The translations under genes and the position numbers were made by a program. The notes beneath the pieces are model-generated. The model saw only the letters and a program-made list of their open reading frames with translations. It was not told the origin of the DNA and made no database searches. A stretch of DNA of 64,000 nt, taken from contig JAJTID010000005.1 in NCBI GenBank assembly GCA_021300155.1, positions 1 to 64,000 of the forward strand, in the 5' to 3' direction. How positions within the stretch are numbered: position 1 is the stretch's first letter; each line of letters starts with the position of its first letter. The DNA is from Pirellula sp. (GTDB taxonomy: Bacteria > Planctomycetota > Planctomycetia > Pirellulales > Pirellulaceae). This document shows positions 13,035 to 33,987 of this stretch, in pieces.

Positions 13035-13862
13035 ATGAAATCCATTCCGACTCTCGTACTTTTTATGCTGTCCATGTTGGTCAGTACACATGCTGCTCCT
13101 CACTTTCCATGCATGGCCCCGGAAGCAACGATTGCCAAGTTTCGCGGAAAATACAAAAAGGGCTGGGACGAACTCAGTCTCGCACGCCATCAACGTCAAG
13201 TTGAATCAGGACTCATTCGTGCATCGTGGAAGCCTCAAGCTCGCCCGGAATCCGGTATTAAAGGGAGATGCAACGGCAATGATCCCGGCGGTCCTGATTC
13301 CAACGTGTTCATCGGGCAGTGTTGGGCGCATTTGAACAATACACCATTTCGACTCTACAAACACTACAATCACGAGGGTGGAATTGCATCGCCGTTGATC
13401 GCCCATTGGCCTGCAGCATTAGGTGATCGATCGGATAAGTCTCCGTGGATTGACACTCCAACCCATTTGATCGACTTGATGGCGACATGCATCGATGTGG
13501 GAGCAGCACAATACCCGAGCGAATTCAAAGGCAACAAAATCACTCCGCTGCACGGTCAAAGCCTAACGCCGTTGCTAAATGGAAAAGGCGCATTCCCGTT
13601 ACGAAGCCTATATTGGGAACATGAGGGCAATGCTGCTGTTCGCGCGGGCGATCAAAAGCTCGTTCGAAAGGGACTACAGGAAGATTGGGAACTGTACGAT
13701 TTAAAGAGTGATAGAACCGAGCAATTCAACCTTGCCAAAGAGAACCCAACGCGAGTTGCTCAATTGCAATCGCAATGGAACTCTTGGGCCAAAGCTGCCA
13801 ATGTTCATCCAAAGCCCGGTGAGGAAACGCGAAAAGGCAATCGTGCTCAGAATGACAAGTAA
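13035..13862 (+). pseudogene. Sulfatase with two internal deletions (no catalytic motif)
   Basis: This is a 275-codon open frame with a clean signal peptide (MKSIPTLVLFMLSMLVSTHA). It then jumps to APHFPCMAPEATIAKFRGKY, a block that normally follows the active-site region by more than 100 residues. It runs normally to about RPESGIK and jumps again to PGGPDSNVFIGQCW, skipping the DNG metal site. The C-terminal half (NNTPFRLYKHYNHEGG to the end) is intact. The nearest relative in the window is the complete sulfatase at 15518-17191, which shares the KxxKGWDxL and LYKHxxHEGG-type blocks. The formylglycine motif and the metal ligands are missing. It shows the same two-deletion design as the broken gene at 4375-5118. 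Confidence 0.85.
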
Positions 13863-13911
13863 ACTACAAATTTGTCACAAGAATCAAACCATGAGAGATA
13901 GGACTACCTTT

Positions 13912-15384
13912 ATGAAAATGCTTGTTCCCAATTCCCTACTTTTTGCGATGGCGATCATAACAGCATCAGGTTTGACAATGGCAGCGGTACTGGGCAAAGA
14001 AGAATCTGCCCGCCCAAACCTACTTATCATGATCGCCGACGATCTATGCTGGCGAGACTTGGGGTTTCAAGGACATCCGGATGTCAAAACGCCCAATCTT
14101 GATCGTTTGGCAACAGAAGGCATGCGATTGGAGCGCATGTTTAATCCCGCTGCAACCTGTTCTCCCACTCGCAATGCATTGTATAGTGGTTTGCACTGCG
14201 TTCGAAGTGGTGCCTTTCCAAATCACACTCGAGTCTACGACGGCACCAAGACAATCTTCACTCACTTGAAGGAGATGGGGTATCGTGTCGGATTGCAAAA
14301 CAAGTCGCACGTCGGTCCAGCCAAGTCCTACCCATTTGAAGCCATCAGCGGTGCTGATGATCTAAGTGAAACAAAGAGATTTATTACACGCGAGAGCGAG
14401 CAGCCTTGGATGCTGTCTTACTGTTCAAATGATCCCCATGGCCCATGGAATCGCCGAGCCGGAGAGCCATTAGATCCCTCGAAGATTACCGTGCCTCCCT
14501 ATATGCATGACAACATCACGACTCGGCAACAATTGGCACTGTACTTCGATGAGATTACGAAATTCGATGAACAAGTTGGAAACTTGCTGAAACTAATCGA
14601 CGAATGTGACCAGCGAGACAATACTGTAGTTGTGTTTCTGTCGGAACAAGGGTGTTCGCTTCCGTATGGTGGAAAATGGTCGCTCTACGACACCGGTATT
14701 CGCGCATCGACAATTGTCCGTTGGCCAGGAAAGATTGCCCCGGGCTCGAAGTCAGAAAGACTGCTACAGTACACCGATATCGCTCCCACATTTATCGAGA
14801 TTGCCGGTGGCGATCCAAACAGGATCGACACGGGCTGTCCAGATGCTAATGGAAAACGTTCTTTTGATGGAACGAGTTTCCTGTCAATCCTCAAAGGTGA
14901 AGACAGAGCGATTCACGAACATGTGTTTGCTCAACATACAACGGTCGGGGTGAACGGTTACGAACAGCCATATCCAAGTCGCATGGTGCGTGACACACGC
15001 TACAAACTAATTCGCAATCTTGCGCCCGATAATGTGTTCACGATAGGAGGAATTCACAAAGGTGAGCCGCTCGACTCTTGGAAAAAAGATGCAAAGTCGG
15101 ATGCAAAACTTCAGAAGAGAGTGGATTGGCTTTTTCGACGCACAAGTGCCGAACTGTACGATTTACAAAACGATCCTTTTGAGATGAACAACCTCGCCTA
15201 CGATCCACAATATGCAGCGGTTCGAACGGCACTGCAATCAAAGCTTGACGCATGGATGGCTCAGCAAGGAGATCAAGGACTCGAGACGGAAATGCTGGCA
15301 ACAACCCGCCAAGGCAAACCTGACAAGGACGAAGCGTCATCGGAGACGCCTGCCAAAACAAAGAAGAAGAAAGCTGGAAACTAA
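13912..15384 (+). CDS. Secreted sulfatase (N-sulfoglucosamine sulfohydrolase-like)
   Basis: This 490-residue protein has a signal peptide (MKMLVPNSLLFAMAIITASG), RPNLLIMIADDLCWRDLGFQ, active-site CSPTR near residue 83, and the SGSH-type blocks GAFPNHTRVYDG, GLQNKSHVGPAKSYPFE, SNDPHGPWNRR and VVFLSEQGCSLPYGGKWS. The ATG at 13912 has a GGA eight bases upstream; an ATG at 13891 and a long upstream extension into the previous gene are less likely. The C-terminus ends in a lysine-rich tail (AKTKKKKAGN). With the gene at 5312-6829 it makes two SGSH-like enzymes in the locus. It follows the deleted sulfatase by about 50 nt and is followed by a paralogue 133 nt away. Confidence 0.92.
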   Translation: MKMLVPNSLLFAMAIITASGLTMAAVLGKEESARPNLLIMIADDLCWRDLGFQGHPDVKTPNLDRLATEGMRLERMFNPAATCSPTRNALYSGLHCVRSGAFPNHTRVYDGTKTIFTHLKEMGYRVGLQNKSHVGPAKSYPFEAISGADDLSETKRFITRESEQPWMLSYCSNDPHGPWNRRAGEPLDPSKITVPPYMHDNITTRQQLALYFDEITKFDEQVGNLLKLIDECDQRDNTVVVFLSEQGCSLPYGGKWSLYDTGIRASTIVRWPGKIAPGSKSERLLQYTDIAPTFIEIAGGDPNRIDTGCPDANGKRSFDGTSFLSILKGEDRAIHEHVFAQHTTVGVNGYEQPYPSRMVRDTRYKLIRNLAPDNVFTIGGIHKGEPLDSWKKDAKSDAKLQKRVDWLFRRTSAELYDLQNDPFEMNNLAYDPQYAAVRTALQSKLDAWMAQQGDQGLETEMLATTRQGKPDKDEASSETPAKTKKKKAGN

Positions 15385-15517: not shown

Positions 15518-17191
15518 ATGAAGACTCGACTAGTTATGGCTAGCCTTTTGGCTCTAGCATTTCAACTTTCCTCTTTCGGTACAGATCGACCGAACATCAT
15601 TGTCGTCTTAGCCGATGACCTTGGGTACTCCGACCTTGGTTGCTATGGTGGCGAGATCCCCACCCCTCATCTTGATTCTCTTGCGAAGGGCGGTGCACGG
15701 TTCTCGCAAATGTACAACTCGGCGCGTTGTTGCCCGACGCGTGCGTCGCTGATGACGGGACTTTATCCAACGCAGGCAGGGATCGGCGACTTCACGACGA
15801 ACAAACCTGCTGAGAATAAAGGCCCAGGGTATCTCGGCCGATTGCGAGATGATTGTGCGACAATGGCAGAGATGCTCAAACCTGCATCGTATCGCAGTTA
15901 TTACGTTGGCAAGTGGCACATGCACTCGACGACAGGCCCTATCGAACGAGGCTTCGATGAGTTCTATGGGTATACTCACGATCATTCCCATGATCAATAC
16001 GACCGCGACTATTATGAAAGACTTCCCAAGAATCGCGTCCACGAAATGAAGTACGACAAAGACAAATATTACGCGACAGATGCGTTCAACGATTACGCGT
16101 TAGAGTTCATTCGCCAGGGACAAAAAAGTGGTTCACCATGGCTCGTCTTCTTAGGTCACTCGTCGCCACACTTCCCCGTTCAAGCTCCTGCCGATCGCAT
16201 CGATAAGTTTGAGCAGATTTACTTGAAAGGCTGGGACAAATTGCGCGAAGAAAGATTTGCTCGCATGCAAAAGATTGGATTGGCCTCGGGACCGGCCTGG
16301 AAACTCAGCCCTCGTAGCATCGTGCCTGTTGACAAGTCAGAGATCGCCAACGGCTATCCAGGTGAAGCGAACCCTGCCTGGGATTCGCTTCCAGAAGATC
16401 GACGTCGTGATCTGGCGCGACGTATGGCCGTATTTGCCGCTATGGTCGAAGGTGTCGATCAAGGCGTCGGTCGCATCGTTCAGCACCTCGAGGAAACGAA
16501 AGATCTCGACAATACACTGATTCTTTTCACAAGCGATAATGGTGCATGTTACGAATGGGGGCCGTTTGGATTCGACGGTGTGTCACGAAAGGGCGAAACA
16601 ACCCTGTACTCTGGAGAAAGAATACGCGAAATCGGCGGGCGGGGTACGTATCATTCCTATGGAAGTGGCTGGGCAAATCTCGGCAATACTCCACTCCGTA
16701 TGTACAAGCACTTCACCCATGAGGGTGGAATCAACTCGCCGTTTATCGCCCATTGGCCCAAAGGATTTACACCTCGAGCAGACTGGATTCATGAACCGGT
16801 TCACGTGATGGATTTCGTTCCAACGATTCTCGCTGCTGCCCATGTTGAGCCGATCAAGCGGCTTGACGATGTGGCGATACAGCCGATCGAAGGCACGAAC
16901 CTGCTTCCGATCATGCGTGGTGAAAAACTTGCTGAACGAGGAATCGGATTTGATCACCAGGGTGCCCATGCTTGGCGAAAAGGAGATTGGAAGATCGTTT
17001 GGTCCAAGCGGATGCCATCTGAGATCAATTGGGAGTTGTATAACATCTCCGAAGACCGCTGTGAAATGAACGACTTAGCGACGAAACATCCTGATCGCGT
17101 GGAATCGATGGCAGCCGAGTGGACGCAGTGGGCAAAGCGAGTGGGCGTTATTTGGGAGCCAAGTAAAAAATCGCTCCGCGATCAATTGTAG
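15518..17191 (+). CDS. Secreted arylsulfatase
   Basis: This is a 557-residue sulfatase with signal peptide (MKTRLVMASLLALAFQLSSF), RPNIIVVLADDLGYSDLGCY, NSARCCPTRASLMTGLYP (formylglycine Cys near residue 71), YYVGKWHM, HSSPHFPVQAP, the second metal site ILFTSDNGACYEWG and the late block NTPLRMYKHFTHEGGI. It is the complete counterpart of the doubly deleted gene at 13035-13862. The residues from the start through SSP and those around DNGACYEWG mark what that copy lost. It lies 80 nt upstream of the fused sulfatase gene in the same direction. Confidence 0.93.
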   Translation: MKTRLVMASLLALAFQLSSFGTDRPNIIVVLADDLGYSDLGCYGGEIPTPHLDSLAKGGARFSQMYNSARCCPTRASLMTGLYPTQAGIGDFTTNKPAENKGPGYLGRLRDDCATMAEMLKPASYRSYYVGKWHMHSTTGPIERGFDEFYGYTHDHSHDQYDRDYYERLPKNRVHEMKYDKDKYYATDAFNDYALEFIRQGQKSGSPWLVFLGHSSPHFPVQAPADRIDKFEQIYLKGWDKLREERFARMQKIGLASGPAWKLSPRSIVPVDKSEIANGYPGEANPAWDSLPEDRRRDLARRMAVFAAMVEGVDQGVGRIVQHLEETKDLDNTLILFTSDNGACYEWGPFGFDGVSRKGETTLYSGERIREIGGRGTYHSYGSGWANLGNTPLRMYKHFTHEGGINSPFIAHWPKGFTPRADWIHEPVHVMDFVPTILAAAHVEPIKRLDDVAIQPIEGTNLLPIMRGEKLAERGIGFDHQGAHAWRKGDWKIVWSKRMPSEINWELYNISEDRCEMNDLATKHPDRVESMAAEWTQWAKRVGVIWEPSKKSLRDQL

Positions 17192-17271: not shown

Positions 17272-20200
17272 ATGATGAGAACGATCGCTCTACTTTTGAT
17301 CGTACTGTTTTCGGACAAAAACGTCTTTGCGGTTGATGTTCAGTATTCTTCTAAACCCAATGTGCTATTCATCGCGATGGACGATCTCAACGATTGGGTC
17401 GGCTGCATGGGAGGGCATCCGCAGTCGATCACACCAAATCTCGATCGACTGGCCGCAGGTGGTGTGCTGTTTACTAACGCGCATTGCCCAGCGCCGGCAT
17501 GCAATCCGTCGCGTTCTGCTATTTTTACGGGAAGTGCTCCTCATCGATCTGGAGTGTATGACAATCGTCAATCGATGCGGCAGATCATGCCCACCGAGGA
17601 TATCATCCCGCAGTACTTTCGAAACCATGGCTATTGCGCAGCTGGTTCGGGAAAACTGCTGCATTACTTCATCGATGCTAAGAGCTGGGACGAGTATTTT
17701 CCAAAGGCGGAATCGGAGAATCCGTTTCCTGATACTTACTATCCGAAGGAGCGTCCAGTAAATTTAGAACGAGGTGGTCCATGGCAATACGTCGAAACGG
17801 ATTGGGCTGCATTAGATGTCACGGATGAAGAGTTCGGCGGCGACTGGTCGGTCAGTAAGTGGATCGGCGAACAGTTGAGCAAGCAACACGACAAGCCATT
17901 CTTTCTCGGTTGCGGTCTCTATCGACCTCACGAACCTTGGTTTGTTCCGAAGAAGTATTTCGAGCCTTTTCCACTCGAGTCGATTCAGTTACCACCAGGG
18001 TACAAAGAAGCTGACTTGGACGATGTTCCGGAAGCTGGGCGACGAGCGGCACGAAATAAGTACTTTGCCCACATTCAACAGCAAGGGCAGTGGAAAAAGG
18101 GGATTCAGGGCTATTTGGCGTCGATTCATTTTGCGGATGCAATGCTAGGTCGAGTGCTGGATGCTTTGGAATCGGGCCCGAATGCTAAGAACACGATCGT
18201 CATTTTATGGTCGGATCACGGTTGGCAATTAGGCGAGAAAGAACACTGGCAGAAGTTCACACTTTGGCGTGCGGTAACTCGCGTTCCGCTGATGGTGCGG
18301 GTACCAAGGAACGCGACAGAGGCTATTCCCGAAGGAACTCAAGCGGGGCAAGTCTGTGGAGCACCAGTGAATTTGCTCAGTTTGTATCCAACGTTACTTG
18401 ACCTCTGCAAACTTCCAGTAAATACAACGAATGACGGTCCAAGTCTGTTGCCTTTGCTTCAAGATCCAGCCAGAGCCGATTGGAATCACGACTCGATTAC
18501 CTACCTCGCCCAAAATGGAGCCTATGCCATCAGCCGAATATCGCAACGCTATATCCACTATGCTGATGGAACCGAGGAATTGTATGACATTGCGAAGGAT
18601 CCGCACGAATGGACGAATCTAGCTACGGCACCCGAGTCGCAGGAGCTATTGGATTCATTTCGAAACACAGCGCCGAAAGAGTTCGCTCAGCACGTTGAAC
18701 CAACGATGAATTCACTAGCGAAACTGACTTGGCATCCGGCAACCGCTGGAGCACTACCTTCATCGAAACCAGACGGCAATCCATTCTCTGTCCATTTCTG
18801 CAACAAACAACGTCAAGCGGTGGAACTGTTTTGGATCAGCCCTCAAGGACAATCAAAGTCGTATGGCTTGATTGATTCTGGAAAGACGGTGTCGCAGCAA
18901 ACTCGCCCTGGGGCTGTCTGGGCTGTTGCTAAATCAAAAGAGGAACCGAAGCTCGGGTATTTCGTTATCGGAGACCGCGCGGCTCAAGCAGTCATCCCAG
19001 CTAACCAACCCAATGTGATTATCATTCTGACGGACGATCAAGGTTGGAGCGATCTCGGATGCCAAGGGGTTCAAAAGGACATCAAGACGCCGCACATCGA
19101 TGCCCTGGCCGCGCGTGGTCTTCGTTGTTCGGCTGGCTATGTAACCGCGCCTCAATGTAGTCCTTCGCGAGCTGGGTTAATGACAGGCCGACATCAACAG
19201 CGATGGGGCATCGACACAAACCCTGACATGCCTCTGCCCACCGAGGCTGTGACAATTGCCGAACGTCTTCGTCCGTTGGGGTACCGCACCGGCTTTGTTG
19301 GCAAATGGCACCTAGAGCCCAATGTGACCTGTGTTGATTGGATGCGCCGCGAACTCCCCGAGATGGCGGGTAAGCCGCGTAATCAAGTTCGTATTCCTTG
19401 GAACAAGACCCAGCCTTTTTCGCCCCAGGCACAAGGATTCGACGAATACTTTTGGGGCGAGTTACGAAACTATCGAACGAATTATGAATTAGCGGGATCC
19501 ACTAAGGAGATGACACAGATCCAGAACAACGACTTTCGTATCGATGTTCAAACGGAGGCCGCTCTTAGTTTTATCAATCGTAACCACGCGTCACCGTTCT
19601 ATCTCCAGTTAAACTACTATGGCCCGCACACGCCTCTTGAAGCAACCCAGAAGTATCTTGATCGTTTCCCTCAGGAAATGCCGACTCGCCGCCGGTATGC
19701 GTTGGCAATGCTGGCAGCAATCGATGATGGGGTCGGCCGAGTAGTTGATGCATTGACCAAGCACAAACTTCTCGATAACACGCTTATCGTGATGACAAGC
19801 GACAATGGGGCACCGCTCAAGATGACCAAAACGGATTCGCCTATCGACAAAGACGCTGGAGGCTGGGATGGTTCGCTCAATGAGCCATGGGTCGGCGAAA
19901 AGGGGATGCTAAGCGAGGGTGGTATTCGTGTCCCGATGATATGGAGCCTTCCCAGCCAACTTCCCAGTGGCAAGACCTTCGACCGGCCAGTTAGCACATT
20001 GGATATTGCACCTAGTGTTCTACTACTGGCTGGCGGTAATTTTTCCGAAGCCAAAGACCAATTCGACGGAATCGACGTGATCGCTGCAATGAATGACATT
20101 CAGAATCCATCAACGCGCACGCTCTACTTCCGATTCTGGGATCAAGCTGCGCTTCGCCAAGGCAAGTGGAAATATATCTATGTCGGAGATGGCAGACGGT

Positions 20201-20382
20201 ACTTGTTTGATCTCGAAGGCGATGAACATGAAAACAAGAATTTACACGATCGGCATCCTGAACTAGCGGCCAAGCTTCACGAAGATCTTGCAGCCTGGTG
20301 TACCAATTTGAAACCTGGCGGCTTGCCAACTGGAAACAAGATGCGAGAACGGAATTGGTACGAGTTTTATTTCGCAAAGTAG
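17272..20382 (+). CDS. Tandem sulfatase with a VHL-beta-like linker domain
   Basis: This is a 1036-residue fusion starting at an ATG with a perfect AAGGAG seven bases upstream. Residues about 1-20 are a signal peptide. Residues 25-480 are an iduronate-2-sulfatase-like domain (VLFIAMDDLNDWVGCMGG, CNPSR with Cys 77, LWSDHGWQLGEKEHW). Residues about 506-566 read VHFCNKQRQAVELFWISPQG, then SYGLIDSGKTVSQQT, PGAVWAVA and LGYFVIG, the strand pattern of the von Hippel-Lindau beta domain. From 577 an arylsulfatase domain follows (NVIIILTDDQGWSDLGCQG, CSPSR with Cys 629, MTSDNGAP). Both active sites look complete. The VHL call is by motif only. In pVHL this domain binds peptides; here a protein- or substrate-docking role is inference. 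Confidence 0.92.
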   Translation: MMRTIALLLIVLFSDKNVFAVDVQYSSKPNVLFIAMDDLNDWVGCMGGHPQSITPNLDRLAAGGVLFTNAHCPAPACNPSRSAIFTGSAPHRSGVYDNRQSMRQIMPTEDIIPQYFRNHGYCAAGSGKLLHYFIDAKSWDEYFPKAESENPFPDTYYPKERPVNLERGGPWQYVETDWAALDVTDEEFGGDWSVSKWIGEQLSKQHDKPFFLGCGLYRPHEPWFVPKKYFEPFPLESIQLPPGYKEADLDDVPEAGRRAARNKYFAHIQQQGQWKKGIQGYLASIHFADAMLGRVLDALESGPNAKNTIVILWSDHGWQLGEKEHWQKFTLWRAVTRVPLMVRVPRNATEAIPEGTQAGQVCGAPVNLLSLYPTLLDLCKLPVNTTNDGPSLLPLLQDPARADWNHDSITYLAQNGAYAISRISQRYIHYADGTEELYDIAKDPHEWTNLATAPESQELLDSFRNTAPKEFAQHVEPTMNSLAKLTWHPATAGALPSSKPDGNPFSVHFCNKQRQAVELFWISPQGQSKSYGLIDSGKTVSQQTRPGAVWAVAKSKEEPKLGYFVIGDRAAQAVIPANQPNVIIILTDDQGWSDLGCQGVQKDIKTPHIDALAARGLRCSAGYVTAPQCSPSRAGLMTGRHQQRWGIDTNPDMPLPTEAVTIAERLRPLGYRTGFVGKWHLEPNVTCVDWMRRELPEMAGKPRNQVRIPWNKTQPFSPQAQGFDEYFWGELRNYRTNYELAGSTKEMTQIQNNDFRIDVQTEAALSFINRNHASPFYLQLNYYGPHTPLEATQKYLDRFPQEMPTRRRYALAMLAAIDDGVGRVVDALTKHKLLDNTLIVMTSDNGAPLKMTKTDSPIDKDAGGWDGSLNEPWVGEKGMLSEGGIRVPMIWSLPSQLPSGKTFDRPVSTLDIAPSVLLLAGGNFSEAKDQFDGIDVIAAMNDIQNPSTRTLYFRFWDQAALRQGKWKYIYVGDGRRYLFDLEGDEHENKNLHDRHPELAAKLHEDLAAWCTNLKPGGLPTGNKMRERNWYEFYFAK

Positions 20383-20695: not shown

Positions 20696-20768
20696 CGCGT
20701 CAGATGGGAGTCGAACCCGCGACCGTCAGTTTTCTAGACTGATGCTCTACCCACTGAGCCACTTCAAT
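20696..20768 (-). pseudogene. tRNA-like relic (anticodon loop reads AGA)
   Basis: Read on the minus strand, the D-arm (GCTC...GAGC around AGTGGGTA), a perfect five-pair anticodon stem (TCAGT/ACTGA) with loop CTAGAAA, a five-base variable loop and a T-loop TTCGACT are in correct order and spacing. The acceptor strands do not pair (ATTGAAG against CTGACGC), the T-stem has one mismatch and one wobble, and an AGA anticodon on a short variable loop does not fit any normal bacterial tRNA. It is therefore tRNA-derived but probably not functional. Confidence 0.65.
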
Positions 20769-20884
20769 CGATGTCGATTCTAGAGCCCGTGCATGGAACA
20801 CGATTAGCTAATTGTGTAAAAGCAGAGGCTACCGCGCCGTCGGAACCACATCGACCAAACGCTTGCTTCAAAGCAGGAACGGTG

Positions 20885-20965
20885 CGATTCGAACACTGTA
20901 TCCGGTTCTTGGCGATAGGCTTTGGAAACCTAGTCCGCTCCCAGGCGAACATCCCTGTAGAGACA
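20885..20965 (-). pseudogene. Second, weaker tRNA-like relic
   Basis: On the minus strand a hairpin GTTCGC/GCGGAC is followed by a five-pair stem with loop TTCCAAA, a 16-base spacer like a long variable arm, and a T-loop GTTCGAAT with only three stem pairs. No acceptor stem forms. The order matches a tRNA but pairing is poor, so this could be chance. Confidence 0.3.
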
Positions 20966-25973: not shown

Positions 25974-28900
25974 ATGATTGACACTCCACTGAATGCAACT
26001 ACGCCAGGAAATACTGCGAACCTTGATTTTTCGTCCATACGCCAGGCGATAGATCATGCAAAACATTACTTGCCGAGTCAGGGGCCTATCGCGGTTTTCA
26101 TCCACCACAACACACTTCATGCGTTTGAGAGTCTACCATTTGAAGAGGCTGTAATCGAAGGTTTACGCATTTATGGATCTCAACCGTATTGGCAAGAGTC
26201 GCGTTATCGCGAAGAAATGTCACGCGATAGGATTCAGCTTCAAGACTTACAAACGGTATTGAAACGTGATCTCGGCGAGTCGTGCCTGCGGGAAATTGCA
26301 CTTGGAACCACACGTTTTGATCTGCGCTACAATATGCTTCGTTACTCGCTTTCGACGGGTAGCGATTCAGAGATTCGCTGGCTTATGGCCCAGAGCGATG
26401 CATTGGAGCGGTTTCAGCTAGGCGTTGAACCGCAAGCGGGAATTGCACTTCTCGAAGCGACCAGGCACTGGATCATGCGTGATTTGCGATTGCATCTTGG
26501 CGATAGTTCGGCTGCCATCCCTTCATCCATTCGATCGGTATTTGATGAATTCCCGTTGCAATCGATTGAATCTTGGAGCGATTCCACTTGGCAACAACTA
26601 ACTCTTCAACTCCTATGGCGCATCTGTCAGGATGGAGTTCGTGGAACTCGAAGAATCGGGCATACTTCTTGTTCGGTGTCTCGGCATCGTGACATTCTAT
26701 TGAGCCTTTGCAGTTTTGATTGCGATGCACAAGTTCACGACTTGCTGATCCGCTTTACCTCCGCATTCTTGGATCAAGGGTTTGCTGGTTGGTCTATTCC
26801 TCAACGCGATGAGGGATTCTACAAGTGTTTTTTGTCTTTGTTTAGCGAGCGTTCTCCCTGGTCGGAGAACTGGCTACGCCCATTAAGGGCGTTGCTTGCC
26901 GAAGAATGCAAACTGGTTTATTCACCTATGGAGTCGATCGCGAACTCGTTGAACCACCTCGGCGTACCGGAAGAGAAACGAGATGAGTTTATCAAGAGAA
27001 CGCTATTGGCATTGCCCGGCTGGACGGGAATGGTTCAGCAAATGGCATCGAACGCAAGCTGGACATTGCATCCTGCTCCGCAAGACTCGTTAGAGGAGTT
27101 CCTCGCAGTTCGATTGCTGCTCGATCGACTTTCCGCGACCCTTTGCATGCGAATGTATTTGCCTAAATTGAATAAGTTGGCCGACTTGTTCGCAGTTGAA
27201 GTTAACAAACAAATTGATCTTCGCGAACAATCAGAGCAACAGATTGCTTTTTATGTGTTTCAGTTGGCTCAGAGATTGAATTGGACTCCGAGTGTGCTTC
27301 ATGCTTGGACTGCAAGCGAGTGGCAAACCGTCGTTGAGGAAATAGGGTTGTTTGACGATCTAGAACGGAGACGCGTTCTTCATTTAGCCTATGAGCATCG
27401 ATATAGGACTCAGATTCTCGATGCAGTTTCAGAACACTCGAAACTACCCTTGAAGATCCCAGAGAAAGTTTCTTTCCAAGTCATAACGTGTATCGATGAT
27501 CGAGAGGAATCCTTTCGTCGTCATTTAGAAGAATTAGACCCCAATGTAGAGACGTTTGGGGCAGCAGGATTCTTTTCGGTTCCGATGTATTTTCGCGGTG
27601 CTGCGGATGCGCATTTTATCCCGCTTTGCCCGGTGATCATGGTTCCAAAAAACTATGTGGAAGAGGTCGGACCTCTTTCTGCCAAGCAAGCTCAAGTTCG
27701 TCGAGCGCAGACGCGGCTTTTGATTGGAAAAGCATCCAAGTCGTTTCATCGAAGTAGTCGCAGTCTCTTTAGCGGCGTGTTGACCGCGATTTTTGGTTCG
27801 CTCAACGCATTCCCGTTGGTCGCACGAGTATTGTTTCCGAGACTCACCGCTCAAATTCGATCAACGCTAGGAACCTTGGTTCGTCCGACGATTGCGACGC
27901 AATTACGATTGGAGCGAGGGAGCGATTCTGTGGTAACAGAAAAAGGAGCGGAAGGATTTACACTTGTCGAGATGGCGAACATGATTGAGCGGTTGACGGG
28001 CGATCTCGGCATTCACCAGCGATTCGCTCCGCTGGTCATTGTTTTCGGGCACGGTTCTTCTAGCCTTAATAATCCTCACGAGTCAGCCTACAACTGCGGC
28101 GCTTGTGGTGGAGGGCAAGGAGGCCCAAATGCCAGGGCTGTTGCTCAAATGGCGAACGATCCGCGAGTCAGAGCAATCCTCAAAGATCGGGGAATTGTGA
28201 TTCCAGATTCGACACTTTTCGTTGGGGGGTTCCACAATACATGCGATGATTCTACTTCTTATTTTGATATAGATCGAATCCCTCCGAATCACGCAGAAAA
28301 GTTTGTAGCAGCGAGTGAGATTGTTGACAAGGCACGAAAGAAGAATGCACACGAACGCTCTCGCCGTTTCTATTCGCTGGACATGAGATGTAGCGACGAA
28401 GAAGCTATCAGGCATGTGGAGCGACGTTCCGAAGATTTAGCTCAAGTTCGACCGGAGTACAATCACGCAACCAATGCAGCATGTTTCGTTGGACGTAGAG
28501 GTCGGACGCGTGGCCTGTTCATGGATCGGCGATGTTTCCTTACGTCATACGACCCGACAACCGACGACGATGTAACGTCCATCCTAAATCGCATCATGCA
28601 GGCAGTGATCCCGGTATGCGGAGGTATTTCCTTAGAGTATTACTTTTCGACGGTAGACAATATTGGCTACGGTTGCGGAACAAAGCTACCGCACAATATC
28701 ACATCATTGATTGGCGTCATGGAGGGGGCCGCAAGCGATCTACGAACTGGTTTGAGCCAACAGATGGTGGAGATTCATGAACCAGTCAGAATCCTCTTTA
28801 TCGTCGAAGCCAAGCCTGAGTCCATTGTGTCCATCATGGATCGAAATCCTTTGATCAGCACTTATATTCGAAATCATTGGGTACAAATTGCCACGTTGGA

Positions 28901-29093
28901 TCCTCAATCCACTCGGATTCATTTGTTTCAAGGGGATCGGTTCGAAATCTATGAACCGGGCCCGCACGTCCTACCTACTGTTCAGGCTTCGCTCGATTGG
29001 TATCGCGGTTGGCGACAACCTCTGGGTTTTTCCACGGTGGAATCTCGGGCTTCTACATCACGGGCTAGCGCAGAGATGGAGGTTGTTTCGTGA
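25974..29093 (+). CDS. dabA: DabA inorganic carbon transporter subunit (DUF2309)
   Basis: This 1039-residue protein is DabA, the carbonic-anhydrase-like subunit of the DAB inorganic-carbon accumulation complex, thought to hydrate CO2 to bicarbonate at the inner face of the membrane using the proton gradient. The zinc ligands line up: Cys 506 and Asp 508 in TCIDDREESFRRHLEE, His 693 in VFGHGSSSLNNPHES, and Cys 708 in YNCGACGGGQGGPNARAV, with the two-residue and 15-residue spacings known for the family. The N-terminal hallmark IAVFIHHNTLHAFE is present. The length is normal for longer DabA proteins. Its stop overlaps the GTG of the next gene (GTGA), implying translational coupling with DabB. 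Confidence 0.95.
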   Translation: MIDTPLNATTPGNTANLDFSSIRQAIDHAKHYLPSQGPIAVFIHHNTLHAFESLPFEEAVIEGLRIYGSQPYWQESRYREEMSRDRIQLQDLQTVLKRDLGESCLREIALGTTRFDLRYNMLRYSLSTGSDSEIRWLMAQSDALERFQLGVEPQAGIALLEATRHWIMRDLRLHLGDSSAAIPSSIRSVFDEFPLQSIESWSDSTWQQLTLQLLWRICQDGVRGTRRIGHTSCSVSRHRDILLSLCSFDCDAQVHDLLIRFTSAFLDQGFAGWSIPQRDEGFYKCFLSLFSERSPWSENWLRPLRALLAEECKLVYSPMESIANSLNHLGVPEEKRDEFIKRTLLALPGWTGMVQQMASNASWTLHPAPQDSLEEFLAVRLLLDRLSATLCMRMYLPKLNKLADLFAVEVNKQIDLREQSEQQIAFYVFQLAQRLNWTPSVLHAWTASEWQTVVEEIGLFDDLERRRVLHLAYEHRYRTQILDAVSEHSKLPLKIPEKVSFQVITCIDDREESFRRHLEELDPNVETFGAAGFFSVPMYFRGAADAHFIPLCPVIMVPKNYVEEVGPLSAKQAQVRRAQTRLLIGKASKSFHRSSRSLFSGVLTAIFGSLNAFPLVARVLFPRLTAQIRSTLGTLVRPTIATQLRLERGSDSVVTEKGAEGFTLVEMANMIERLTGDLGIHQRFAPLVIVFGHGSSSLNNPHESAYNCGACGGGQGGPNARAVAQMANDPRVRAILKDRGIVIPDSTLFVGGFHNTCDDSTSYFDIDRIPPNHAEKFVAASEIVDKARKKNAHERSRRFYSLDMRCSDEEAIRHVERRSEDLAQVRPEYNHATNAACFVGRRGRTRGLFMDRRCFLTSYDPTTDDDVTSILNRIMQAVIPVCGGISLEYYFSTVDNIGYGCGTKLPHNITSLIGVMEGAASDLRTGLSQQMVEIHEPVRILFIVEAKPESIVSIMDRNPLISTYIRNHWVQIATLDPQSTRIHLFQGDRFEIYEPGPHVLPTVQASLDWYRGWRQPLGFSTVESRASTSRASAEMEVVS

Positions 29094-31980: not shown

Positions 31981-33987
31981 ATGTCAACCGAATCAATCGC
32001 TACCGAGGGAACCATCAGCCAATCGCCGCCCGTTGGTAATTTTGCTGGTTTCTTCAATTACTTTCGATACGATGCGCTTAGCGGTTTCCTCGTATTCCTT
32101 ATTGCATTACCTCTTTGCCTCGGAATCTCGTCCGCTTCCGAGTTTCCCATAGTAGCTGGTGTTTTGACAGCCATTGTTGGCGCGGTCTTGGCGCCACTCA
32201 TCTCCAATAGCGAACTGACTATCAAAGGGCCGGCGGCTGGATTGATTGTTATTTCGCTGGGAGCGATTCAAGAGATGCGAACCATCTATGGTAACGAAGG
32301 CGGGTACGCAGCCGTATTAGCTATCGGTGTCGTGGCGGGCGTGATTCAAATCGCCTTCGGGTTGTTGAGGAGCGGGATTATCGGCGAGTTCTTTCCCTCA
32401 GCTGTTGTTCATGGCATGTTGGCTGCGATCGGTGTCATCATCATTGGAAAGCAAACGCACACCTTGCTCGGTGTCCAGCCCGAAAGTCATGAGCCACTAG
32501 GATTGCTGGCCGAAATTCCTAAGTCGATTTGGAATATGGATCCTTACGTGGCGTTCATCGGTGGGCTCAGCCTGGCGCTTTTATTCGGTATGACATTCTT
32601 CAAAAACAAAACGATTAAGAAGATTCCAGTACCCATGTTGGTTATGTTGATGGCTATCCCTCTGGGGATGTATTTCGAACTAGGAGAACCACACAAGTAT
32701 ACATTTGGTGGTGTCGAGCACTTTATCTTGGAGAAGGCACTCGTAAACATCCCTTCTAATTTACTTGCAGCGATCACATTTCCGAATTTTGCATCCTTGC
32801 AAACGTTTGCCGCTTGGAAGTGGATTTTCATGTATGCGTTGATCGGCTCACTTGAGTCGATTCTAAGTGCCAAAGCGGTCGATATGCTCGATCCTTACCG
32901 ACGAAAATCAAACCTAAATCGCGATTTACTGGCTGTCGGCATTGGCAACACGGTGAGCTCGGCAATCGGTGGTCTTCCGATGATCTCCGAAATTGTTCGT
33001 AGCAAGGCGAATATCGACAACGGTGCCAAGACTCGGTTTGCCAATTTCTGGCATGGGTTGTTCCTGCTCGTAAGCGTTTCGTTTCTCGCGAACTTCATCC
33101 ATCTCATTCCCATGACTGCCCTAGCAGCCATGTTGATCTTTACCGGTTTTCGATTGGCATCTCCGAACGAGTTTCTCAAAGTATATAAAACGGGCCGCGA
33201 GCAACTATTCATTTTCGTTTTCACGATGCTAATGGTACTAGCGACCGACTTGCTGATTGGCATAATGCTCGGCATCATCTTAAAATTGGTGATTCATACG
33301 GCGAACGGAGTTCCCCTGTCCTCGCTATTCAAGCCTTTTCTGGATGTTCAGACGCTTGAAGATGGTAGTTGCATCGTCTTCGCAAGGCAGTCTGCAGTTT
33401 TTTCTAATTGGATCCCATTTCGTCGCCAAATAGAGCACTTAGGTTTTGTACAAAGGTCGAACGTTACCGTTGATTTGTCCGGAACCAAATTTGTGGATCA
33501 CACCGTGATGGAGAAACTCCATGAACTGCAAGAGGATTTTACGCACGAAGGTTTGAAGTTGGATATCATTGGACTAGAGAGTCATCGGCAAATGAGTTCT
33601 TCCAGCCTAGCGGCTAGAAAGCAACTCGGTGTTCCATTGATGCATCGTTTAACATTTACGCTACCGGCCAATCAGGAATCCGCGATCACTTCGATTTTGA
33701 GTCAGGTAGAACTGGTAGATTCGATTAGGAGCAACTGGATATCCTCGCTTCCTAACTCACTACACGTCAACCTGTTTAGGATGGAAGTCTTGATTTCGCG
33801 AGACAAAAGCCAACGCTTAATCGAAGCTATACGTCGTGAAATGCCCCACTTGATTGGTATGACTATGCTAATTGAGACTGTCGGTGTATTGCATTGTGGA
33901 GCAGACTCGTGGCCTTCTAGTATGATGGACACGAGAACTGAGATTAGCAATGTTCGTGACGATTTTGTTAAAAGCAGTATCAAATAG
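31981..33987 (+). CDS. SulP-family anion transporter with STAS domain (putative bicarbonate)
   Basis: This 668-residue protein has a SulP/SLC26 membrane domain (residues about 30-440: FLIALPLCLGISSASEFP, ELTIKGPAAGLIVISLGAIQ, GGLPMISEIVRSKANIDNGA), a STAS domain (about 450-560: VTVDLSGTKFVDHTVMEKL) and an extra C-terminal block (about 595-650: FRMEVLISRDKSQRLIEAI) that looks like the first half of a PII-like fold. SulP proteins move sulfate or bicarbonate; the position 97 nt behind the Dab genes favours bicarbonate, but specificity is inference. It is followed after 14 nt by the response regulator gene, so transporter and regulators are probably one operon. Confidence 0.88.
   Translation: MSTESIATEGTISQSPPVGNFAGFFNYFRYDALSGFLVFLIALPLCLGISSASEFPIVAGVLTAIVGAVLAPLISNSELTIKGPAAGLIVISLGAIQEMRTIYGNEGGYAAVLAIGVVAGVIQIAFGLLRSGIIGEFFPSAVVHGMLAAIGVIIIGKQTHTLLGVQPESHEPLGLLAEIPKSIWNMDPYVAFIGGLSLALLFGMTFFKNKTIKKIPVPMLVMLMAIPLGMYFELGEPHKYTFGGVEHFILEKALVNIPSNLLAAITFPNFASLQTFAAWKWIFMYALIGSLESILSAKAVDMLDPYRRKSNLNRDLLAVGIGNTVSSAIGGLPMISEIVRSKANIDNGAKTRFANFWHGLFLLVSVSFLANFIHLIPMTALAAMLIFTGFRLASPNEFLKVYKTGREQLFIFVFTMLMVLATDLLIGIMLGIILKLVIHTANGVPLSSLFKPFLDVQTLEDGSCIVFARQSAVFSNWIPFRRQIEHLGFVQRSNVTVDLSGTKFVDHTVMEKLHELQEDFTHEGLKLDIIGLESHRQMSSSSLAARKQLGVPLMHRLTFTLPANQESAITSILSQVELVDSIRSNWISSLPNSLHVNLFRMEVLISRDKSQRLIEAIRREMPHLIGMTMLIETVGVLHCGADSWPSSMMDTRTEISNVRDDFVKSSIK

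Follow-up and report, generated by a model that had tools for sequence, protein, structure and literature searches.

Why should a bacterial sulfatase carry a domain that resembles pVHL, the hydroxyproline reader of animal oxygen sensing? The question is raised by a 64,000-nucleotide stretch of DNA from Pirellula sp. (GCA_021300155.1, contig JAJTID010000005.1, positions 1-64,000; hereafter the window, to which all coordinates refer), in which a gene encoding 1036 aa (17272-20382, + strand) contains two sulfatase domains (PF00884 matched twice, E 1.4e-94) and, in the linker between them, a proposed VHL-beta-like domain. We approached it by computing the fold, the architecture, the pocket pattern and the gene neighbours of relatives.

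The linker of a bimodular sulfatase

The N-terminus of the protein is signal-peptide-like, as judged by eye, and is followed by a first sulfatase module (17332-18759, +) that is S1_7-like, with 6hhm as its nearest solved structure. Its formylglycine-type motif, C-N-P-S-R, lies at 17500-17514 (+), and the C, N, P and R are invariant across the 36 rows of alignment A4. The second module (19006-20379, +) is like the carrageenan sulfatases (S1_19/S1_16) by PF00884 and structure comparison, and it carries C-S-P-S-R at 19156-19170 (+), the C-x-P-S-R pattern being present in this module in all 13 bimodular frames listed. Both modules are type I (S1) sulfatases by their PF00884 domain and C-x-P-S-R motif, and the names S1_7 and S1_19 are those of the nearest solved structures. 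The full-length predicted model has a pLDDT of 77.7 and a pTM of 0.69. The first module with its VHL domain is probably a secreted S1_7-like sulfatase, and its predicted site of action is outside the cell.

Two further PF00884 sulfatase genes lie upstream on the same strand (13708-15384 and 15518-17191, both +). Downstream of the gene, a tRNA match at 20702-20763 (-) exceeds the Rfam gathering score (44.5 versus 29 bits), ARAGORN reports no tRNA in the window, and a second tRNA-like stretch at about 20860-20960 was recognized by eye only. Beyond the sulfatase cluster are genes for a DabA inorganic-carbon transporter subunit (25974-29093, +) and a member of the sulfate permease family (31981-33987, +).

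The linker is a VHL beta domain of 81 aa (18763-19005, +), assigned by profile and predicted fold, and it forms the C-terminal domain of the first module. The original prediction had placed it at 18780-18990 between the two sulfatase domains; the position is correct and the extent, at about 18763-19005, goes slightly beyond those limits. VHL is the only Pfam family matched by the linker (E 0.0038, 17.7 bits, below the cut-off of 21). In alignment A1, which comprises the window domain and 29 relatives from BLAST (30 members), Pfam VHL is matched by 25 of the 30 at E<=0.1, with a best value of 5.2e-11, and two sulfatase-type relatives score above the cut-off (G043:C17, 23.4 bits; G246:C221, 29.1 bits). 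When the A1 profile was compared with the PDB, 24 VHL sequences came first (E 9.3e-6 to 5.4e-5), followed by one kinase-domain protein at E 0.035. An AlphaFold2 model of the domain (116 aa, 81-row alignment, pLDDT 78.6, pTM 0.64) superimposes on residues 63-154 of pVHL, the whole beta domain, with a Z of 11.7 and an rmsd of 1.8 A over 83 residues; all 50 entries listed in the structure comparison are VHL entries, and each of the 50 rows that Foldseek lists belongs to a VHL complex (best E 9e-7).

The profile search and the structure prediction by which the identification could have failed thus returned a VHL match and a pVHL beta-sandwich, and the VHL-beta identity, supported by profile and fold, survives. 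An accidental likeness, for which the one argument is that the single window sequence falls under the Pfam cut-off (17.7 versus 21 bits), is extremely improbable given that profile, single-sequence and fold searches are concordant and that sulfatase-type relatives exceed the cut-off; we discarded chance resemblance on the Pfam matches of the A1 members, the PDB profile search and the fold match. A search of plasmid records with the VHL linker gave no match.

Distribution of the VHL domain in bacteria

Relatives were sought in 100 Pirellulaceae genomes, where 30 VHL-sulfatase places were listed (5 of them bimodular), and in a collection of species genomes, where 80 of 99 loci found were kept, these 80 having been located with the pattern Q[QSR][TS]RPGAVW. 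The titles of the 80 loci name Planctomycetota, Verrucomicrobiota and Kiritimatiellota, together with one record labelled Rhodospirillaceae. In both searches the VHL domain is usually the C-terminal end of the sulfatase, and in the 95 frames counted that lack a second module the stop codon follows 0-15 codons past the domain. In a tree of 99 first modules (last 80 residues excluded; supports are SH-aLRT), 86 rows have no second module after the VHL domain, 11 have a second module of the window type, and two Mariniblastus rows have one of another type; the 86 include four rows of distant sulfatase subfamilies, as well as L081 and L105, which have additional sulfatase modules ahead of the VHL-bearing one. 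Among the bimodular loci, L045 and L049 come from Rhodopirellula and Neorhodopirellula strains.

The VHL domain is, then, the C-terminal domain of a large S1_7-like sulfatase family of Planctomycetota and Verrucomicrobiota. Among other sulfatases it is widespread as a C-terminal module and not as an insert specific to bimodular enzymes. The suggestion that it is an unusual insert in a bimodular sulfatase, which might position the two active sites, finds no support, given that 86 rows of 99 have no second module behind the domain and that 95 frames end after it, and we have dropped the notion of an insert special to bimodular sulfatases because single sulfatases are the majority. The 11 bimodular rows require two changes on the tree, inside a supported clade of 17 rows (99, SH-aLRT). 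Judged from sequence, the second module was added later, by a fusion within one Pirellulaceae clade, and the Mariniblastus fusion is separate. Since a supported set of five rows places two single ones (L010 and L038) next to the window, the second module may subsequently have been lost, or fusion may have happened twice.

Fusion between sulfatases seems to be recurrent in this family, as two loci have further sulfatase modules ahead of the VHL-bearing one (two in L081, 1189-5706; one in L105, 3025-6240). At two others the sulfatase and the VHL domain are in separate frames (L014, 854-1854; L072, 1076-2076), a split that is either a frameshift or an assembly error.

VHL domains are also present on quite different bacterial proteins. 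Searched with the A1 profile, the genome of the window yields a single further VHL protein, a DPPIV-type peptidase on contig C173, and Pfam VHL is matched above the cut-off in 42 of 294 Planctomycetota genomes. Among 30 VHL proteins fetched from that survey, 20 have DPPIV_N; the remaining ten comprise six that match zinc-metallopeptidase models (M90/ATLF; only one above the cut-off), one LRR protein, one with GH127 domains, and two with VHL only. The GH127 match (L154) was at one stage taken for a DPPIV protein and is a separate frame of 305 aa with the GH127 middle and C-terminal domains and VHL. The domain also occurs on additional DPPIV-type proteins, on SASA esterases and LRR proteins, on a kinase and, in one case (L165), at the C-terminus of an S9 peptidase. 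The many different hosts, above all enzymes, indicate that VHL is an accessory domain. In one Planctomycetota group (L163, L164 and L174), neighbouring genes each have a terminal VHL, and they encode an SASA esterase, an LRR protein and a GH127-type frame. GH127 enzymes act on hydroxyproline-bound arabinose.

The hydroxyproline pocket

According to excerpts of two papers, the hydroxyproline site of pVHL consists of W88, Y98, H110, S111, H115 and W117, of which S111 and H115 bond the hydroxyl of hydroxyproline (PMC9528729, PMC6650433). By alignment, the equivalents in the window domain (all + strand) are W521 for W88 (18832-18834), Y531 for Y98 (18862-18864), T544 and R545 for S111 and Y112 (18901-18906), A548 for H115 (18913-18915) and W550 for W117 (18919-18921). 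Four of the five positions W88, Y98, S111, H115 and W117 are therefore kept or conservatively replaced (W, Y, T, A, W) and H115 is lost, such that the window domain does not have the full reader pocket of pVHL.

Internal and sulfatase-type domains differ at this site. In the internal set (38 distinct domains, of which Pfam assigns 34 to DPPIV-type proteins) the pocket is intact: H115, Y98, W117 and S/T111 are each found in all 38 and W88 in 37, and among the 35 that share less than 70% identity with one another, the six best-conserved columns out of 54 are N78 and those of the five pocket residues. The sulfatase-type set (105 distinct domains) retains W88 in 98 cases, Y98 in 92 (with F in 12), S/T111 in 104 and W117 in 102, whereas H115 is replaced by A in 96 (and remains H in 1) and Y112 by R in 96. 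Four frames among the 105 that were first assigned by the domain alone are sulfatases, with 61-64% identity to the first module. Since the 80 pattern-found loci were selected with a pattern that covers some of the pocket residues, conservation at those residues is partly built in. A motif-independent check was made with 29 A1 rows, from which L034, a non-sulfatase, was excluded, and it gave W88 in 23, Y/F98 in 28, S/T111 in 29, W117 in 27, H115 to A in 21 and Y112 to R in 24. In the other C-terminal class (24 rows), the H115 position is H in 10, A in 8 and N in 6. In the VHL-domain tree a supported branch (98, SH-aLRT) separates the sulfatase-type domains from the others; it is the only branch used from a tree that has few columns and many unresolved forks.

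As H115 is lost in nearly all sulfatase-type domains, the binding of plain hydroxyproline is not predicted. It might be argued that the domain is simply a structural part of the first sulfatase, a stabilizer or C-terminal cap, and later a spacer, with no ligand of its own. Its attachment to one sulfatase family, on one side of the branch, and the loss of the key polar residue H115 are what such a part would look like; we regard it as rather unlikely because the pocket aromatics and S/T111 remain conserved and the same fold is found on unrelated enzymes. Under the recognition role that we prefer, the retained aromatics and S/T111 would still form a binding site, and the replacement of H115 by A and of Y112 by R could admit an O-glycan on the 4-OH of hydroxyproline or an anionic group. 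With alanine in place of H115 there would be room around the hydroxyl of hydroxyproline, which makes O-glycosylated hydroxyproline the foremost candidate ligand.

Hydroxyproline catabolism near VHL-sulfatases

Excerpts of PMC4113996 list four enzymes for the hydroxyproline pathway: the epimerase (2AZP is a 4-hydroxyproline epimerase), a DAAO-superfamily oxidase, a DHDPS-superfamily deaminase and an aldehyde dehydrogenase. At one of the 80 loci (L053), a same-strand run of four genes comprises an epimerase-like gene, the VHL-sulfatase, a member of the DHDPS family (nearest 2hmc, 4mpq and 5czj) and a D-amino-acid dehydrogenase gene, so that the three neighbours are of enzyme types belonging to that pathway. 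The epimerase-like gene matches the NCBIfam 4-hydroxyproline epimerase at E 3.6e-114 and PDB 2azp at E 2e-102; this match, like the other epimerase matches, is under the curated NCBIfam cut-off. An epimerase, deaminase-like or dehydrogenase gene is present at 9 of the 80 loci (L050, L051, L053, L060, L083, L090, L097, L107 and L108), L084 has an Xaa-Pro-type peptidase only, and 71 of the 80, many of them shortened, have none of the three genes. Four of 20 Pirellulaceae regions are also positive, namely L183 (on the opposite strand), L186, L192 and L196, of which L196 is the same place as L107. The 20 regions are those that come next in listing order once the bimodular places and L010 are set aside, and their choice was made with the deaminase-like places known. 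The total is 12 distinct positive loci, all with single VHL-sulfatase genes, and in the first-module tree close kin among them are L050, L051 and L060, and L083, L090, L097 and L108.

A VHL-DPPIV gene is beside the epimerase as well at L083 and L097. Both are from Verrucomicrobiaceae, and in each a single same-strand cluster (L083, 2191-8970; L097, 2642-9277) contains two VHL-sulfatases, VHL-DPPIV and the epimerase-like gene. A DUF885-like gene recurs behind the Xaa-Pro-type peptidase at three loci (L050, 8399-10045; L051, 8462-10159; L186, 16274-17965) and may be a member of the same pathway; the names M24 and DUF885 are ones that we presume to apply.

The deaminase-like gene allows a comparison with a base rate. 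It is found in 51 of the 100 Pirellulaceae genomes, at 52 places, and lies <=10 kb from 3 of the 30 VHL-sulfatase places, where about 0.05 would be expected (P 1.6e-5; all 30 listed places, Poisson, with an even spread of genes assumed, and with genes on separate contigs scored as not near because distances were taken by coordinates). At one of the three (G087) the deaminase-like copy is shortened and has an internal stop. Near 20 other copies of the 52, an epimerase is found in 7 cases and a dehydrogenase in 6, which supports the deaminase-like assignment. The gene is also commoner in genomes that have a VHL-sulfatase (22 of 29 versus 29 of 71; Fisher P 0.0013, without correction for phylogeny).

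The bimodular enzymes examined have no such neighbours. Hydroxyproline genes sought in the window gave no match at 1e-15; the 10 bimodular loci from the species-genome search, some cut by contig ends, show none of the three genes; and within 10 kb of the 5 bimodular Pirellulaceae places there is no deaminase-like gene, the one gene compared there. The genome of the window does have a proline-racemase-family gene and a deaminase-like gene, on other contigs. In 20 VHL-DPPIV regions there was no epimerase and no deaminase-like gene, and one weak dehydrogenase match (32% identity).

We consider it unlikely that the ligand is something unrelated to hydroxyproline, for instance a sulfated glycan or a partner protein, and that the neighbours belong to general scavenging clusters. 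The remodelled pocket with its conserved Arg at Y112, the resemblance of the modules to algal-polysaccharide sulfatases and the absence of hydroxyproline genes from most loci all fit that explanation, yet the neighbours are specifically an epimerase, a DHDPS-family gene, a D-amino-acid dehydrogenase and an Xaa-Pro-type peptidase, in several lineages, and their frequency in Pirellulaceae exceeds the base rate. Our reading is that, in several lineages at least, VHL-sulfatases help the cell to use material that contains hydroxyproline.

Proposed role and comparison with known systems

The VHL beta domain is the C-terminal non-catalytic module of the first sulfatase, behind which a second one was later fused. 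We propose, with about even confidence, that it serves for recognition and guides the enzyme to proteins that bear hydroxyproline and are probably glycosylated and sulfated. As to the original suggestion that the domain might bind protein partners, we favour such a recognition role, in which hydroxyproline-type compounds are the leading candidate for the inferred ligand because of the fold, the pocket and the gene neighbours of relatives. The VHL module would direct the sulfatase to such proteins, and in related bacteria the freed hydroxyproline would pass through 4-hydroxyproline epimerase, oxidation of D-hydroxyproline and the DHDPS-family deaminase. Algae contain sulfated hydroxyproline-rich glycoproteins. 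More tentatively, bacterial VHL domains might in general be hydroxyproline-recognition modules outside animal oxygen sensing, with the pVHL pocket on the prolyl peptidases of PVC bacteria and the H115A/Y112R pocket of the sulfatases serving for glycosylated or sulfate-bearing hydroxyproline, and these, together with Xaa-Pro-type peptidases and the catabolic pathway, may constitute a system for exploiting sulfated hydroxyproline-rich glycoproteins, for example those of algae.

Bacterial relatives of pVHL are hereby given a concrete and testable role, the basis of which is a pocket intact on bacterial prolyl peptidases and altered on sulfatases, and neighbours tied to hydroxyproline breakdown in several relatives. 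This suggests a possible bacterial route of attack on sulfated glycoproteins that are rich in hydroxyproline, and it points to new binding domains for hydroxyproline or glyco-hydroxyproline.

The open-licence papers searched include none that describes a VHL domain from sulfatases or from planctomycetes, and one that does so for another bacterium. Like the protein of the window, one from Litorilituus sediminis is bacterial, has a Pfam VHL domain and is predicted to be secreted, but it is a small hypothetical protein and no sulfatase or hydroxyproline link is given in the excerpt of that source (PMC9002001). With the pVHL beta domain (PF01847) the window domain shares the fold over residues 63-154, with W88, Y98 and W117 identical and S111 present as T. 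It differs in having A at H115, Q at H110 and R at Y112 and in being attached to a sulfatase, in a bacterium. No alpha domain, the part by which pVHL binds elongin C as an E3 ligase adaptor, was seen: the match stops at pVHL residue 154 and the second sulfatase begins at 19006. The solved structure nearest to the first module, the S1_7 ulvan sulfatase FA22070 of Formosa agariphila (6hhm, Z 38.3), matches only model residues 2-452, which is the sulfatase part without the VHL domain. The nearest to the second module is the kappa-carrageenan sulfatase PsS1_19B (6prm, Z 42.2, model residues 553-1004), which, unlike that module, is a single enzyme that is not fused to a VHL-bearing sulfatase.
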